Source of the DNA: Corallococcus macrosporus DSM 14697 | GTDB lineage: Bacteria; Myxococcota; Myxococcia; Myxococcales; Myxococcaceae | Length of the DNA stretch: 64,000 bases | Assembly: GCF_002305895.1 (NCBI RefSeq) | Contig: NZ_CP022203.1 | Location: forward strand, 1,652,501 to 1,716,500 | Reading direction: 5' to 3' | Part shown: piece after piece, positions 3,113 to 20,827 of the stretch | How the letters are laid out: each line of letters starts with the position of its first letter | Numbering within the stretch: the first letter of the stretch is position 1 | Notes under the pieces: model-generated | What the model saw: only the letters and a program-made list of their open reading frames with translations | Databases searched by the model: none | What the model was told of the DNA's origin: nothing | Made by a program: the position numbers and the translations under genes

Positions 3113-5455
3113 ATGCACGCTTACGCCGCTGAGCTTTCCCAGGAGCTGGGCCTCAGGCCCGAGCAGGTGGACCGGACCCTCGCGCTGCAAGAGGACGGAG
3201 CCACGGTCCCCTTCATCGCGCGCTACCGCAAGGAAGTCACCGGCGGTCTGGACGAGGTCCAGATTCAGACCCTCTTCGACCGCGCCACCGAGCGCGCCGA
3301 GCTGGACGCCCGGCGCGACACCATCCTCCGCACCATCGAGGAGCAGGGGAAGCTGACGCCGGACTTGGCGAAGGCGCTCAAGGCGGCGAAGACGCGCACC
3401 GAGCTGGAGGACCTGTACCTCCCGTACAAGCCCAAGCGCCGCACGCGGGCCGCCATCGCCCGGGAGCGCGGGCTGGAGCCGCTGGCGGACCTGCTGTGGA
3501 AGCAGGACGGCCGGCGCGGCGAGGACGTGGCCGCGTGCGTGCGCCCCTACATCCACCCGGAGAAGGACGTGCCGGACCAGGCCGCGGCGCTCGCGGGCGC
3601 GCGGGACATCTGCGCCGAGCGCGTGGCCGAGGACGCCGGCCTGCGCCGCGAGGCCCGCGAGGTGAGCGCGCGCCGGGGCACGCTGTGCTCCAACGTGGTG
3701 TCCGCGAAGAAGGGCGAGCCGACCAAGTTCGAGAACTACTACGGCCACGAGGAGCCGCTGTCCCAGGCCCCCTCGCACCGCGTGCTGGCGCTCTTGCGCG
3801 GCGAGGAGGAGGGCGTGCTGAAGGTGAAGCTCTCCCTGCCGGACGACGAGGTGAAGGGCCTGCTCGCCGGGCGCGTGGTGACGAAGCCGCAGTCCCTGTT
3901 CGCGCAGGAGCTGCGCGCCGCCGTGGAGGACAGTTGGGACCGGTTGATGGGCCCCTCGCTGGAGGCGGAGCTGCGCGCGGAGCTGAAGGAGCGCGCGGAC
4001 CGGCAGGCCATTGGCGTCTTCGGGGAGAACCTGCGCCACCTGCTGCTCACGCCGCCCGCGGGCGCCCGCGCGGTGCTGGCCCTGGACCCGGGCCTGCGCA
4101 CGGGCACCAAGCTGGCGATGATGGACGTCACCGGCAAGGTGGTGGAGACGCTGACGCTCTACTCGGAGCGCGGCGCGGACGAGCGCGCCCGCGCGGCGAA
4201 GCTGCTGGCCGCGGTGGTGCAGAAGCACAAGCCGGAGCTCATCGCCGTGGGCAACGGCACGGGCAGCCGCGAGGCGGAGCTCTTCGTGCGCGACACGCTG
4301 AAGGCGCTGGGCTCGCAGGTCCCCGTGGTGTCCGTGAGTGAGCAGGGTGCGTCCATCTACTCGGCCTCCGAGGTGGCCCGCGACGAGTTCCCGGACCTGG
4401 ACGTCAGCCTGCGCGGCGCGGTGTCCATTGGCCGCCGCCTCCAGGACCCGCTGGCGGAGCTGGTGAAGATCGACCCCAAGAGCATTGGCGTGGGGCAGTA
4501 CCAGCACGACGTGGACCAGGGCCTGCTCAAGAAGAAGCTGGGCGAGGTGGTGGACTCGTGCGTCAACGCGGTGGGCGTGGATGTGAACACCGCGTCGCCG
4601 CAGCTCCTGGAGCACGTGTCCGGCGTGGGGCCATCGCTGGCGAAGAAGCTGGTGGCGCACCGCGCGGCGAAGGGGCGCTTCACCACGCGGCGCGAGCTCC
4701 TGAAGGTGAGCGGCCTGGGGCCCAAGACGTTCGAGCAGGCGGCGGGCTTCCTGCGCGTGCGCGGCACGGAGCCGCTGGACGCCAGCGCCGTCCACCCGGA
4801 GCGCTACGGCGTGGTGGAGCGCATGGCCAGGGATTTGGGCGTGGCCGTGAGCGCGCTGGTGGGCAACGCCGAGCTGGTGCGCAAGATTGACCCCAGGCGC
4901 TACCTGGGCCCGGACCTGGGCGAGCTGACGCTCAAGGACATCCTGGCGGAGCTGGAGAAGCCCAGCCGCGACCCGCGCGGTGACTTCACCGCGCCCCAGC
5001 ACCGCGAGGACCTGCGCTCGCTGGAGGACGTGAAGGAGGGCATGGTGCTCCAGGGCGTGGTGACGAACGTCACCGCGTTCGGCGCCTTCGTGGACGTGGG
5101 CGTGCACCAGGACGGCCTGGTCCACGTGTCGCAAATCTCCACGCGCTTCGTGAAGGACCCCTCTGAAGTGGTGAAGGTGGGGGACCGGCTGACGGTGCGC
5201 GTGCTCACCGTGGACCTGGCGCGCAAGCGGCTGGCGCTCTCCGTGCGCGCGGTGCAGGAGGGTGGGGCGCCGCAGCCGTCGGGCCGTCCCCACGTCGGCG
5301 GGGCCACGGGGCCGGGCCGGATGACGGAGCGCGGCGGGCCTCCGCGTCAGGGCGCCCGGCCGTCCTCGGGCACGGGCCAGAAGCCCGCTCCAGGGCCCGC
5401 CGAGAAGAAGGGCCCGGAGCCGTTCAACAACCCCTTCAGCAAGCTCAAGCGCTGA
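3113..5455 (+). CDS. tex: Tex-family S1 RNA-binding transcription accessory protein
   Basis: At 780 residues this matches Tex/YhgF in full length. Domain order is as in the family: N-terminal helical Tex region with PFIARYRKE at about residue 30; a YqgF/RNase-H-like domain beginning VLALDPGLRTG near residue 321; a helix-hairpin-helix pair near residues 495-545 (VSGVGPSLAKKLVAHR and VSGLGPKTFEQAAG); and an S1 RNA-binding domain near residues 643-715 (GVVTNVTAFGAFVDVGVHQDG). A Pro/Gly-rich basic tail of about 60 residues follows. Tex binds nucleic acid and is linked to transcription and to rescue of stalled polymerase. The gene is convergent with, and 12 bp from, the TPR gene downstream. Confidence 0.95.
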   Translation: MHAYAAELSQELGLRPEQVDRTLALQEDGATVPFIARYRKEVTGGLDEVQIQTLFDRATERAELDARRDTILRTIEEQGKLTPDLAKALKAAKTRTELEDLYLPYKPKRRTRAAIARERGLEPLADLLWKQDGRRGEDVAACVRPYIHPEKDVPDQAAALAGARDICAERVAEDAGLRREAREVSARRGTLCSNVVSAKKGEPTKFENYYGHEEPLSQAPSHRVLALLRGEEEGVLKVKLSLPDDEVKGLLAGRVVTKPQSLFAQELRAAVEDSWDRLMGPSLEAELRAELKERADRQAIGVFGENLRHLLLTPPAGARAVLALDPGLRTGTKLAMMDVTGKVVETLTLYSERGADERARAAKLLAAVVQKHKPELIAVGNGTGSREAELFVRDTLKALGSQVPVVSVSEQGASIYSASEVARDEFPDLDVSLRGAVSIGRRLQDPLAELVKIDPKSIGVGQYQHDVDQGLLKKKLGEVVDSCVNAVGVDVNTASPQLLEHVSGVGPSLAKKLVAHRAAKGRFTTRRELLKVSGLGPKTFEQAAGFLRVRGTEPLDASAVHPERYGVVERMARDLGVAVSALVGNAELVRKIDPRRYLGPDLGELTLKDILAELEKPSRDPRGDFTAPQHREDLRSLEDVKEGMVLQGVVTNVTAFGAFVDVGVHQDGLVHVSQISTRFVKDPSEVVKVGDRLTVRVLTVDLARKRLALSVRAVQEGGAPQPSGRPHVGGATGPGRMTERGGPPRQGARPSSGTGQKPAPGPAEKKGPEPFNNPFSKLKR

Positions 5456-17633: not shown

Positions 17634-18572
17634 ATGAGCAGACCCCGCATCGTTTTCATGGGCACCCCCGACTTCGCGGTGGCGTCCCTGGCCGCCTGCT
17701 TCGAACTGGGAGAGGTGGTGGCCGTCGTCACCCAACCCGACAAGCCCAAGGGCCGCGGCAACACCGTGACGGCGCCGCCGGTGAAGGAGCTGGCCCTGTC
17801 ACGCGGCGTGCCCGTGCTCCAGCCCACCAAGCTGCGCACGCCGCCCTTCGCGGAGGCGCTGCGCCAGTACGCGCCGGACATCTGCGTGGTGACGGCCTAT
17901 GGCCGCATCCTCCCCAAGGATTTGCTGGAGCTGCCCACCCACGGCTGCGTCAACGTGCACGGCTCGCTGCTGCCGCGCTTCCGGGGCGCCGCGCCCATCC
18001 AGTGGGCCATCGCCCACGGCGACGCGGAGACGGGCGTGTCGTTGATGGTGATGGACGAGGGCCTGGACACCGGCCCGGTGCTGGCGATGAAGCGCATGCC
18101 CATCGCGCCGGACGACACGAGCGCCACGCTGTACCCGAAGCTGGCGGCGCTGGGCGGTGAGGTGCTGCGCGAATACCTGCCCGCCTACCTGCGCGGCGAG
18201 CTGAAGCCGGTGCCGCAGCCTTCCGAGGGCATGGTGCTGGCCCCCATCATCGAGAAGGACCAGGGCCGGTTGGACTTCACGAGGCCCGCGGTGGAGTTGG
18301 AGCGCCGCCTGCGGGCCTTCACGCCGTGGCCCGGCGCCTTCACCACGCTGGGCGGAAAGCTGTTGAAGGTCCACCGCGCGACGGCCAGGGGTGGTAGTGG
18401 GGCTCCCGGCACGGTGCTGGCGTCCGGCCCGGACGGCATCGAGGTGGCATGCGGCGAGGGCTCGCTGGTCCTGCTGGACCTCCAGCCGGAGGGAAAGCGG
18501 GTGATGCGCGCCGCGGATTTCCTGCAGGGGCACAAGCTGGCGCCGGGCAGCCAGCCCTTCGTCGCGGGCTGA
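17634..18572 (+). CDS. fmt: Methionyl-tRNA formyltransferase
   Basis: 312 residues, full family length. It formylates Met-tRNAfMet using 10-formyl-THF. Visible signatures: VFMGTPDFAV near residue 8; the formyltransferase active site NVHGSLLPRFRGAAPIQWAI near residues 109-128 (catalytic Asn and His); and GVSLMVMDEGLDTGPVL near residues 135-151 with the catalytic Asp. The C-terminal OB-like tRNA-binding domain follows (RLRAFTPWPGAFTTL). It starts a tight operon: 15 bp to the dehydroquinase-like gene, which overlaps rsmB. The usual partner def is not adjacent but at 61223. Confidence 0.97.
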   Translation: MSRPRIVFMGTPDFAVASLAACFELGEVVAVVTQPDKPKGRGNTVTAPPVKELALSRGVPVLQPTKLRTPPFAEALRQYAPDICVVTAYGRILPKDLLELPTHGCVNVHGSLLPRFRGAAPIQWAIAHGDAETGVSLMVMDEGLDTGPVLAMKRMPIAPDDTSATLYPKLAALGGEVLREYLPAYLRGELKPVPQPSEGMVLAPIIEKDQGRLDFTRPAVELERRLRAFTPWPGAFTTLGGKLLKVHRATARGGSGAPGTVLASGPDGIEVACGEGSLVLLDLQPEGKRVMRAADFLQGHKLAPGSQPFVAG

Positions 18573-18587
18573 TTGGGAGAACGGGTG

Positions 18588-19514
18588 ATGGGCATGAGAC
18601 TGCTGGTGCTGCATGGACCCAACCTCAACCTGCTGGGCGTGCGGGATGACACGTCCGGCGGGCGGCTCGAGGACCTGGACGCCGCGATGCAGGCCCGCGC
18701 GGAGGCGCTGGGCCTGGAGCTGACGGTGGTGCAGTCCAACCACGAGGGCGACCTGCTCGACACGCTCGGCGCGGAGCTGGAGGCGCTGGACGGCATCATC
18801 ATCAACCCGGCCGGGCTGTTCGGCTCCTACTGTCTCAAGGAAGGGCTGGAGGCCGCGGGGCTGCCCGCCATCGAGGTGCTGCTCAAGCCCCCCGCGCGTG
18901 AGTCCGTGGTGGGCGAGGCCTGCGTGCTCCAGATTCACGGCGGGCCCGGCTTCGAGCCCTACCTGCAGGCCCTGGAGACCTTCGGCAGCGGCGTCTTCAC
19001 CACGGCGCAGCCGGAGCCGAAGAAGCCCCTGGGCAAGAAGAAGGGCAGCGCCACCCGGGGCGCGAAGGTGACGCCCATCACCGTGCTCAAGCGCGCCCCG
19101 CGCAGGGAGGGCTCGTCGGAGACGGCGAAGTCCCTGGCCCGCGCGGTGAAGGCGGCGGGGCCCACGAAGACGCTGGGCCGCAAGCTGGCGCCGGTGGAGG
19201 ACCTGCGCGCGGCCCGCCAGGCGAAGACGCTGGGGCGCGGCGGCAAGGGGCTCACCCCCGCGGCGGACCTGCTCACGCGCGCGCTGGTGCGCCAGAAGAT
19301 TTCGGACCGGCTCGCGGGGCGGCTCTCCGCCGCCGAGCTGGCCACCTGGGCGCGTTCCCAGTATCAGGCGGTGCAGCGGGGCGCTCCGGCGGAGCATGGC
19401 CACCGCGAGCTGCTGGAGGAGAGCCTCCAGAGCCTCACCCTCTCCAACCTGCCCGCGACGCGGCTCTCGGATGAGCAGCTCGTGGACCTCTTGACCCGGC
19501 TCGACGAAGGATGA
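18588..19514 (+). CDS. Dehydroquinase-II-like protein, probably inactive, with C-terminal extension
   Basis: 308 residues. Residues 1-145 follow the type II 3-dehydroquinate dehydratase fold: GPNLNLLG (10-17), QSNHEGDLLDTL and IIINPAG are at their expected places. Typical enzymes are about 150 residues; this has about 165 extra, basic and then helical (SDRLAGRLSAAELATWAR). The catalytic Tyr after GPNLNLLG-R is missing (VRDDTSGGRL) and the catalytic His of the family's H-x-S-N-hydrophobic-H-x-R-E segment is replaced (VLLKPPARES), so activity is unlikely. ATG 18588 sits about 8 bases after GGGAGA. It overlaps rsmB by ATGA and follows fmt by 15 bp, which suggests a translation or rRNA-related role rather than shikimate synthesis. 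Confidence 0.82.
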   Translation: MGMRLLVLHGPNLNLLGVRDDTSGGRLEDLDAAMQARAEALGLELTVVQSNHEGDLLDTLGAELEALDGIIINPAGLFGSYCLKEGLEAAGLPAIEVLLKPPARESVVGEACVLQIHGGPGFEPYLQALETFGSGVFTTAQPEPKKPLGKKKGSATRGAKVTPITVLKRAPRREGSSETAKSLARAVKAAGPTKTLGRKLAPVEDLRAARQAKTLGRGGKGLTPAADLLTRALVRQKISDRLAGRLSAAELATWARSQYQAVQRGAPAEHGHRELLEESLQSLTLSNLPATRLSDEQLVDLLTRLDEG

Positions 19515-20827
19515 ACGCCCGCGCCCTCGCCATCACCGTCCTCGCGCGCGTCCGCGCGACGGACGCCTACCTCAACGTCGTGCTGGACACGCAGTTGTCC
19601 GAATCGCCGCCGAAGGACCCGCGCGACGCGGCGCTCGTCACCGAGCTGGCCTACGGCGCCACCCGGCGGCAGCTCGCGCTGGACTACGCCATTGCCCGCT
19701 TCGCGGACCGCAAGCTGGACGCGCTGGAGGACAAGGTGCTGGCGGCGCTCCGCATTGGCGCCTATCAAATCTTCCACACCCGCGTGCCCGCGCGCGCCGC
19801 GGTGGCGGAGACGGTGCAGGCCCTGAAGGAAGTGGGGCTGACGCGCGCGGCGGGCTTCACCAACGCCATCCTCCGCAAGCTGGCGGACCTGCCCGCGCCG
19901 CCGCTGCCCCCGGCGTCCGACGTGGCGCTCCACCTGTCCGTGCGGGAGAGCCACCCCCAGTGGCTGGTGGAGCGCTGGCTGCGCCAGTTCGGCCGCGAGC
20001 GCGCCGAGGCCATGCTGGTGGCCGACAATCAGGCCCCGGCGGTGGTGGTGCGCGCCAACACCGCGAAGGTGACGCGCGACGCGCTGCTCACCCAGCTCCA
20101 GGAGATGGGCGTGGACGCCAAGGCGACCACCGTGTCGCCGGTGGGCATCACCCTGCCGCCGGTGGGCCGGGTGGAGGACGTGTACGGCTACGCGGAGGGG
20201 CTGTGGCAGGTGCAGGACGAGGCCGCGCAGCTCGTGGGCGTCTACGGGGCGATTCCGGAGACGGCGCGCGTGCTGGACGCGTGCGCCGCGCCGGGCGGCA
20301 AGTCCTGTCACCAGGCGCAGTCCCATGACGTCGTCGCGGTGGACCTGCACGCGCACAAGCTGCGGAAGATCGAGGCGGAGGCGAAGCGCCTGGGCCTGCA
20401 GCCGCGCCTGAAGGCCTACGCGCACGACGCCGCGGAGCCCTTCCCTGAAGCGTGGGGCGAGTTCCACGCGTTCCTGGTGGACGCGCCGTGCTCGGGGCTG
20501 GGCACGCTGCGCCGCCACCCGGAGCTGCGCTACCGCCGCAAGGAGGAGGACATCTCCCGGCTGGCCACGCTCCAGCGGCGCATCCTGGAGAACTGCCAGG
20601 AGGCGGTGCCGGCCGGCGGGCTGCTCGTCTACGCGGTGTGCACCATGGAGCCGCAGGAGGGGCAGGACCAGGTGGAGATGTTCCTGCGCAGCCACCCGGA
20701 GTGGACGGCCGAGCCGCCCGTGCTGCCCGGCCTCAAGCTGCCGCTGTCCCAGGCGTACCTGCGCACGCTGCCGGGGCCGGAGGGCTTCGACGGGTTCTTC
20801 GCCGCGCGCCTCCGGAAGCTCTACTGA
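19511..20827 (+). CDS. rsmB: 16S rRNA (cytosine-C5)-methyltransferase RsmB
   Basis: 438 residues, full length. The N-terminal about 135 residues are a NusB-like RNA-binding domain (VLDTQLSESPPKDPRDAALVTEL, ITNAILRK-type segment FTNAILRKLADL). The SAM-dependent methyltransferase part shows motif I VLDACAAPGGKS (near residue 256), motif IV DAPCSGLGTLRRHPE (near 324) and the motif VI Cys in VYAVCTMEPQEGQ (near 375), giving the two cysteines of this family. It methylates C967 of 16S rRNA. Its ATG overlaps the stop of the upstream gene (ATGA). It is convergent with the LysR gene, 7 bp away. Confidence 0.94.
   Translation: MNARALAITVLARVRATDAYLNVVLDTQLSESPPKDPRDAALVTELAYGATRRQLALDYAIARFADRKLDALEDKVLAALRIGAYQIFHTRVPARAAVAETVQALKEVGLTRAAGFTNAILRKLADLPAPPLPPASDVALHLSVRESHPQWLVERWLRQFGRERAEAMLVADNQAPAVVVRANTAKVTRDALLTQLQEMGVDAKATTVSPVGITLPPVGRVEDVYGYAEGLWQVQDEAAQLVGVYGAIPETARVLDACAAPGGKSCHQAQSHDVVAVDLHAHKLRKIEAEAKRLGLQPRLKAYAHDAAEPFPEAWGEFHAFLVDAPCSGLGTLRRHPELRYRRKEEDISRLATLQRRILENCQEAVPAGGLLVYAVCTMEPQEGQDQVEMFLRSHPEWTAEPPVLPGLKLPLSQAYLRTLPGPEGFDGFFAARLRKLY

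Follow-up and report, generated by a model that had tools for sequence, protein, structure and literature searches.

A probable type II dehydroquinase pseudoenzyme beside rsmB in Myxococcus and its relatives

The nearest precedent that we found for the locus described here is Aro1 of Candida albicans, whose type I dehydroquinase domain is dead and has been replaced by a type II enzyme, Dqd1 (PMC9074039). As in that case, a dehydroquinase domain has very probably lost catalysis and the other type of dehydroquinase covers the step, but the arrangement is a mirror image, with a type II protein that appears dead and a type I fusion, AroDE, as the candidate for the active step; moreover, the dead protein is here encoded by a separate gene that carries new modules. 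Two type II dehydroquinase genes, AroQ1 and AroQ2, can also occur in one genome, as in Ralstonia, where both are reported as dehydroquinases (PMC10171560), which is not a pseudoenzyme case. For AroDE, the described counterpart is the plant DHQ-SDH (2gpt; NCBIfam PRK09310), in which a type I dehydroquinase is likewise fused to a shikimate dehydrogenase, although the myxobacterial protein is very divergent from it (about 22% identity). Searches of the literature found nothing on the pseudo-dehydroquinase of this locus or on myxobacterial AroDE.

The stretch of DNA that we analysed (the window) comprises 64,000 nucleotides of Corallococcus macrosporus DSM 14697 (NZ_CP022203.1, positions 1,652,501 to 1,716,500), whose chromosome is closed at 8,973,512 bases. 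The gene under study is an open reading frame of 308 codons on the + strand (18588-19514), and a search with its translated protein found the nearest named relatives in Myxococcus, among them M. xanthus AM003 (91%). Upstream lies fmt, recognized from its translation as a methionyl-tRNA formyltransferase gene (17634..18572, + strand), which is adjacent in most, not all, orthologous loci and falls outside the function proposed below. Downstream, on translation and adjacency, is rsmB, for a 16S rRNA m5C methyltransferase (19511..20827, + strand). The gap of 15 bp after fmt and the contact with rsmB, whose start overlaps the stop codon as ATGA, are as the first-pass annotation had described them. 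A Myxococcus-type pseudo-dehydroquinase at 89% identity is also present in BNCN01000002.1 (L197), deposited as Comamonas sp. KCTC 72670, a record that looks mislabelled.

The dehydroquinase-like core

Pfam, alignment and structural modelling all place the first 135 residues (18588..18992, + strand) in the flavodoxin-like fold of type II dehydroquinases. PF01220 matches residues 5-131 with 84.9 bits, the segments GPNLNLLG, QSNHEG and IINPAG are present, and in an AlphaFold2 model built from 46 orthologues this core is predicted with confidence, as is a helical C-terminal domain, while the linker between them has low confidence. The modelled core superposes on solved type II dehydroquinases with a Z of about 21 and an rmsd of 1.9 Å over 135 residues. 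The likeness to AroQ extends to the fold of residues 1-140, the signature segments (the last as INPAG) and the equivalents of E99 and R108; the differences are the loss of Tyr24, His81, His101 and Arg112 and the addition of a helical domain and of a linker that bears the motifs. The protein scores 77.5 bits against the aroQ equivalog TIGR01088, whose cut-off is 169.85, and falls under every NCBIfam aroQ cut-off, so that the expectation that automated pipelines would name the gene aroQ holds for Pfam but not for NCBIfam.

In the dehydroquinase of C. glutamicum, replacing any one of N12, R19, Y24, N75, E99, H101 or R108 by alanine all but eliminates activity, and none is detectable in H81A or R112A (PMC10772564). 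In an alignment with canonical AroQs from sister genomes and the enzyme of B. subtilis, Gly stands at the Tyr24 position of the window protein, in a lid shortened by two residues, with Phe at His81 beside a one-residue deletion, Leu at His101, Lys at Ser103 and a deletion in place of Arg112; the equivalents of N12, R19, N75, E99 and R108, five of the seven alanine-sensitive residues, are retained. The first-pass annotation had described just such a protein, with the type II scaffold kept and the catalytic Tyr and His gone, and its suggestion that the Tyr and His positions be aligned with those of characterized enzymes gave the same picture across orthologues: Tyr24 is absent from all 85 that were aligned, and a displaced Tyr, sought along the lid stretch, was found in none of them, while His81 is kept in three and His101 in 11. 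The 27 members of the genus all lack Y24, H81, H101 and R112 and have one pocket pattern in common (N-R-G-N-F-[DE]-E-[LM]-[KR]-R-gap). In divergent members the lid and the R108 loop are deleted, the R19 and R108 positions each being gapped in 16 of the 85. Because the B. subtilis structure 1gqo itself has Phe at the Tyr24 position in our alignment, loss of the Tyr alone is weaker evidence than the combined loss. Since the essential residues are gone in every close orthologue, another candidate enzyme exists for the step, and the gene is under purifying selection (see below), the view that the protein is a catalytically dead paralogue of type II dehydroquinase, a pseudoenzyme, is well supported by sequence comparison.

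AroDE and the dehydroquinase step

PF01220 has a single copy in the genome, the window gene, and aroB and aroC are also present; the second intact aroQ that the first-pass annotation had proposed to look for was not found in a scan with this profile, but another candidate enzyme for the step was. A genome search with PF01487 had returned no type I dehydroquinase in 96 genomes of the family, which would have meant an interrupted pathway, a result that turned out to be a false negative when reading of the aro operon and a lineage-specific profile recovered AroDE, which nonetheless passes the cut-off of that same profile when scanned as a protein. The operon (L105, G000:C1:4132000-4148000) is 2.5 Mb from the window gene and, as read from the operon, encodes AroDE, of 423 residues, on the - strand between aroK and aroC (L105:10050-11321, about G000:C1:4142049-4143320). 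Its N-terminal half scores 26.4 bits against a PF01487 cut-off of 22.2, and its C-terminal half is AroE. The model of the whole protein matches Arabidopsis DHQ-SDH (2gpt/6bmb) with a Z of 25 over 398 residues, and the predicted structure of the N-terminal half alone matches type I dehydroquinases with a Z of 18-19. Residues E35, R37, D39, H103, K128, R171 and Q195 are invariant in 14 homologues, and we take them to be the counterparts of Salmonella E46, R48, D50, H143, K170, R213 and Q236. AroDE thus combines the type I fold, equivalents of the Schiff-base Lys170 (K128) and of His143 (H103), and fusion to AroE.

With the lineage profile, AroDE was found in 87 of the 96 family genomes. The nine without it are mostly incomplete assemblies, some of which lack aroC too, or genomes with a canonical AroQ (G046, G081, G082); G044 fits neither explanation. 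Families f2 and f3, in their complete genomes, encode a canonical AroQ but lack AroDE, and the reverse holds for f6, whose genomes encode AroDE without any AroQ. We infer that AroDE is active in Myxococcus and its relatives and very probably catalyses the dehydroquinase step there, judging from its sequence and operon. With AroDE present, its type I residues invariant and its distribution complementary to that of AroQ, the window protein would not be needed for the step in Myxococcus; the possibility that it is the sole dehydroquinase, with catalytic residues at shifted positions, which had been considered as long as the type I search stood as negative, was dropped once AroDE was found. Two further observations concern these genes. 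At L111 (G045, 3217-5410) the AroDE frame carries a long low-complexity insertion between its type I dehydroquinase and AroE halves, and at L008 and L009 (G081, G082) the canonical AroQ beside aroB/aroC is extended at its C-terminus by about 150 residues, GAF-like in appearance.

The linker, its repeated motif and the C-terminal domain

The extension of 165 basic and helical residues noted in the first-pass annotation is present, and can be refined into a basic, low-confidence linker (aa 136-222; 18993..19253, + strand) followed by a separate helical domain (aa 223-308; 19254..19511, + strand). The linker is predicted to be disordered (pLDDT about 50), with a net charge of about +17 in the window protein and a median of +9 across representatives, and within the genus it is under almost no amino-acid constraint (pN/pS 0.96) save for its repeated motifs. 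The pattern K-[TS]-[LIV]-G-[RK] occurs 124 times in the linkers of 47 representatives, compared with 0.27 expected from shuffled linkers, and is present in all 46 representatives whose linker is complete, the last copy usually standing 15-18 residues before the C-terminal domain. In the window protein there are three copies on the + strand: a divergent KPLGK (19023..19037), KTLGR (19167..19181) and, shortly 5' of the C-terminal domain, a second KTLGR (19224..19238). Across the genome the KTLGR pattern gives 16 scattered single matches, against six for a reversed-pattern control, and two KTLGR close together were found only in the window gene. Judged from these counts, the motif is conserved far beyond chance. 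At L013 (G083), a greatly expanded linker of low complexity brings the linked protein to 584 residues; His81 is still present in it, His101 is not.

The C-terminal domain, of ~85 residues, is predicted with a pLDDT of about 95. Profile searches place it once per genome and almost only in the family of the window genome and a few relatives. No known family exceeds the Pfam cut-off, and a PDB profile search with the domain gave chance matches only. EAD2 (PF19956) was considered and rejected: it matches two of 24 members, with a best E of 0.001, one member scanned singly reached 19.7 bits against a cut-off of 23.8, and the window protein itself shows no match.

Among the 27 members of the genus, pN/pS is 0.31 for the dehydroquinase domain, 0.96 for the linker and 0.33 for the C-terminal domain; among close relatives the corresponding ranges are 0.13-0.26, 0.42-0.67 and 0.12-0.30. 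The reading frame is open in the loci that were recovered whole, and the gene is kept in nearly all genomes of the family. These ratios show purifying selection on each of the two folded domains.

Origin of the locus and possible roles

When the conservation of the operon was checked, adjacency to fmt proved less conserved than adjacency to rsmB. The gene overlaps rsmB in 57 of 82 scorable loci and lies at most 300 bp from it in 79, and in 11 loci fmt is missing from the flank or distant, with rsmB still within 500 bp. The clearest exceptions to rsmB adjacency are L193 and L194 (G003, G005), where extra genes, one of about 540 residues, stand between the two. The origin of this location is suggested by family f9, where the order at L187 is fmt-aroA-aroE-aroC/K-aroB-aroQ-terC-rsmB and the aroQ is intact, with the Tyr and both His. 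In family f8, at L179 and L180 (where L180 also has fmt upstream), the gene next to rsmB is already equipped with the C-terminal domain and the linker motifs. It retains both His and, in its shortened lid, carries a Tyr displaced by a few residues; no other dehydroquinase homologue was found in those genomes. Two family members, L011 and L012, are similar two-His intermediates. Two f8 relatives, L183 and L184, have the motifs but no C-terminal domain, and their loci are apart from fmt-rsmB. In a tree of the dehydroquinase domain, all 51 linked copies, including L011, L012, L179 and L180, group in one clade with a support of 0.78, separate from the canonical AroQs of aro operons. The canonical AroQs at L002-L007 were rejected as ancestors of this clade, as they group with the B. 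subtilis type. The location between fmt and rsmB is thus probably a relic of a shikimate operon, and because f9 holds an aro operon with an intact aroQ at this very place, it is probably inherited and not in itself an argument for a role in translation. The first-pass suggestion that the fold was recruited for translation or rRNA modification drew solely on the neighbourhood, which the f9 locus explains better.

We favour, with a probability of about 0.72, the reading that the pseudo-dehydroquinase is kept for a non-catalytic role, probably as an oligomeric scaffold that shows the linker motifs. An ancestral aroQ would have been the last gene of a shikimate operon flanked by fmt and rsmB and would have gained the linker and the C-terminal domain while it was near-canonical, as in f8 now; the type I AroDE fusion would then have taken over the reaction, and the old enzyme would have lost catalysis while its second role stayed. 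The core would no longer turn over dehydroquinate and would serve as a folded, probably oligomeric platform, from which the helical domain and the flexible linker, with its several copies of K-[TS]-[LIV]-G-[RK], may jointly bind a putative partner. Against a pure scaffold stand the five catalytic residues that remain and a pocket that is near-invariant in the genus, and a ligand may therefore still bind.

That persistence is the basis of a possible, if doubtful, alternative, in which the old active site now binds a ligand as a sensor or performs a new reaction, with a basic pocket (N12, R19, N75, E99, the usual K/R103 and R108) suited to an anionic ligand whose state would be reported by the linker and C-terminal domain. 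The pocket changes little among the 27 genus members even where overall identity drops to about 64-67%, and few positions in the whole degenerate clade are better conserved than HGPN, NHEG, P74 and E96; part of this conservation may be structural, however, and the gaps at R19 and R108 in divergent members mean that a single ligand role cannot fit the whole clade.

The scaffold reading could also be taken further. Type II dehydroquinases are dodecamers of four trimers, and myxobacteria have many kinase and FHA proteins. If the ancestral dodecamer were kept, the dead core could act as an oligomeric hub displaying tens of motif copies, whose Thr or Ser would be phosphorylated and read by a kinase or FHA protein, so that some unknown signal would be linked with the rsmB operon, and K-[TS]-[LIV]-G-[RK] could then be a new lineage-specific recognition motif. 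This extension is speculative and rather improbable; if it were true, motif and second function would have arisen in a near-canonical enzyme, giving a datable case of the passage from enzyme to scaffold.

A partnership with RsmB or Fmt, in which the protein would take part in initiating translation or in methylating 16S rRNA, is unlikely; an assembly or specificity factor whose basic linker brings RsmB to pre-ribosomes would be one example. The frequent overlap with rsmB, its retention where fmt is not near and the positive charge of the linker would agree with such a role, but the outgroup operon indicates that the gene stood at this place before catalysis was lost, L183 and L184 keep domain and motifs away from rsmB, and other genes intervene in L193 and L194. 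We regard it as highly improbable that the protein still acts as a dehydroquinase through a changed mechanism: the five retained alanine-sensitive residues are compatible with it and the f8 copy at L179/L180, with both His, a nearby Tyr and no other homologue found, may be active there, but in the genus the base Tyr and both His are missing, the lid holds no Tyr at any position and AroDE is present. That the gene is a functionless, decaying pseudogene, as the lost catalytic residues and drifting linker might suggest, can practically be dismissed, contradicted as it is by the selection result (pN/pS about 0.15 for both domains in close relatives), the open frames, the conserved motif and the retention of the gene.

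For annotation, the consequence of the pseudoenzyme reading is that Pfam-based tools would assign the dehydroquinase step of Myxococcus to a protein that is very probably incapable of it, while the Pfam type I genome search misses the likely enzyme. For the scaffold reading, the repeated linker motif offers a concrete handle on the new function. A single bacterial order would hold a stepwise record, from the canonical operon aroQ of f9 through the near-canonical f8 proteins with their added modules and the two-His intermediates to the fully dead forms, of how an essential metabolic enzyme may have turned into a non-catalytic protein, with the steps still visible.
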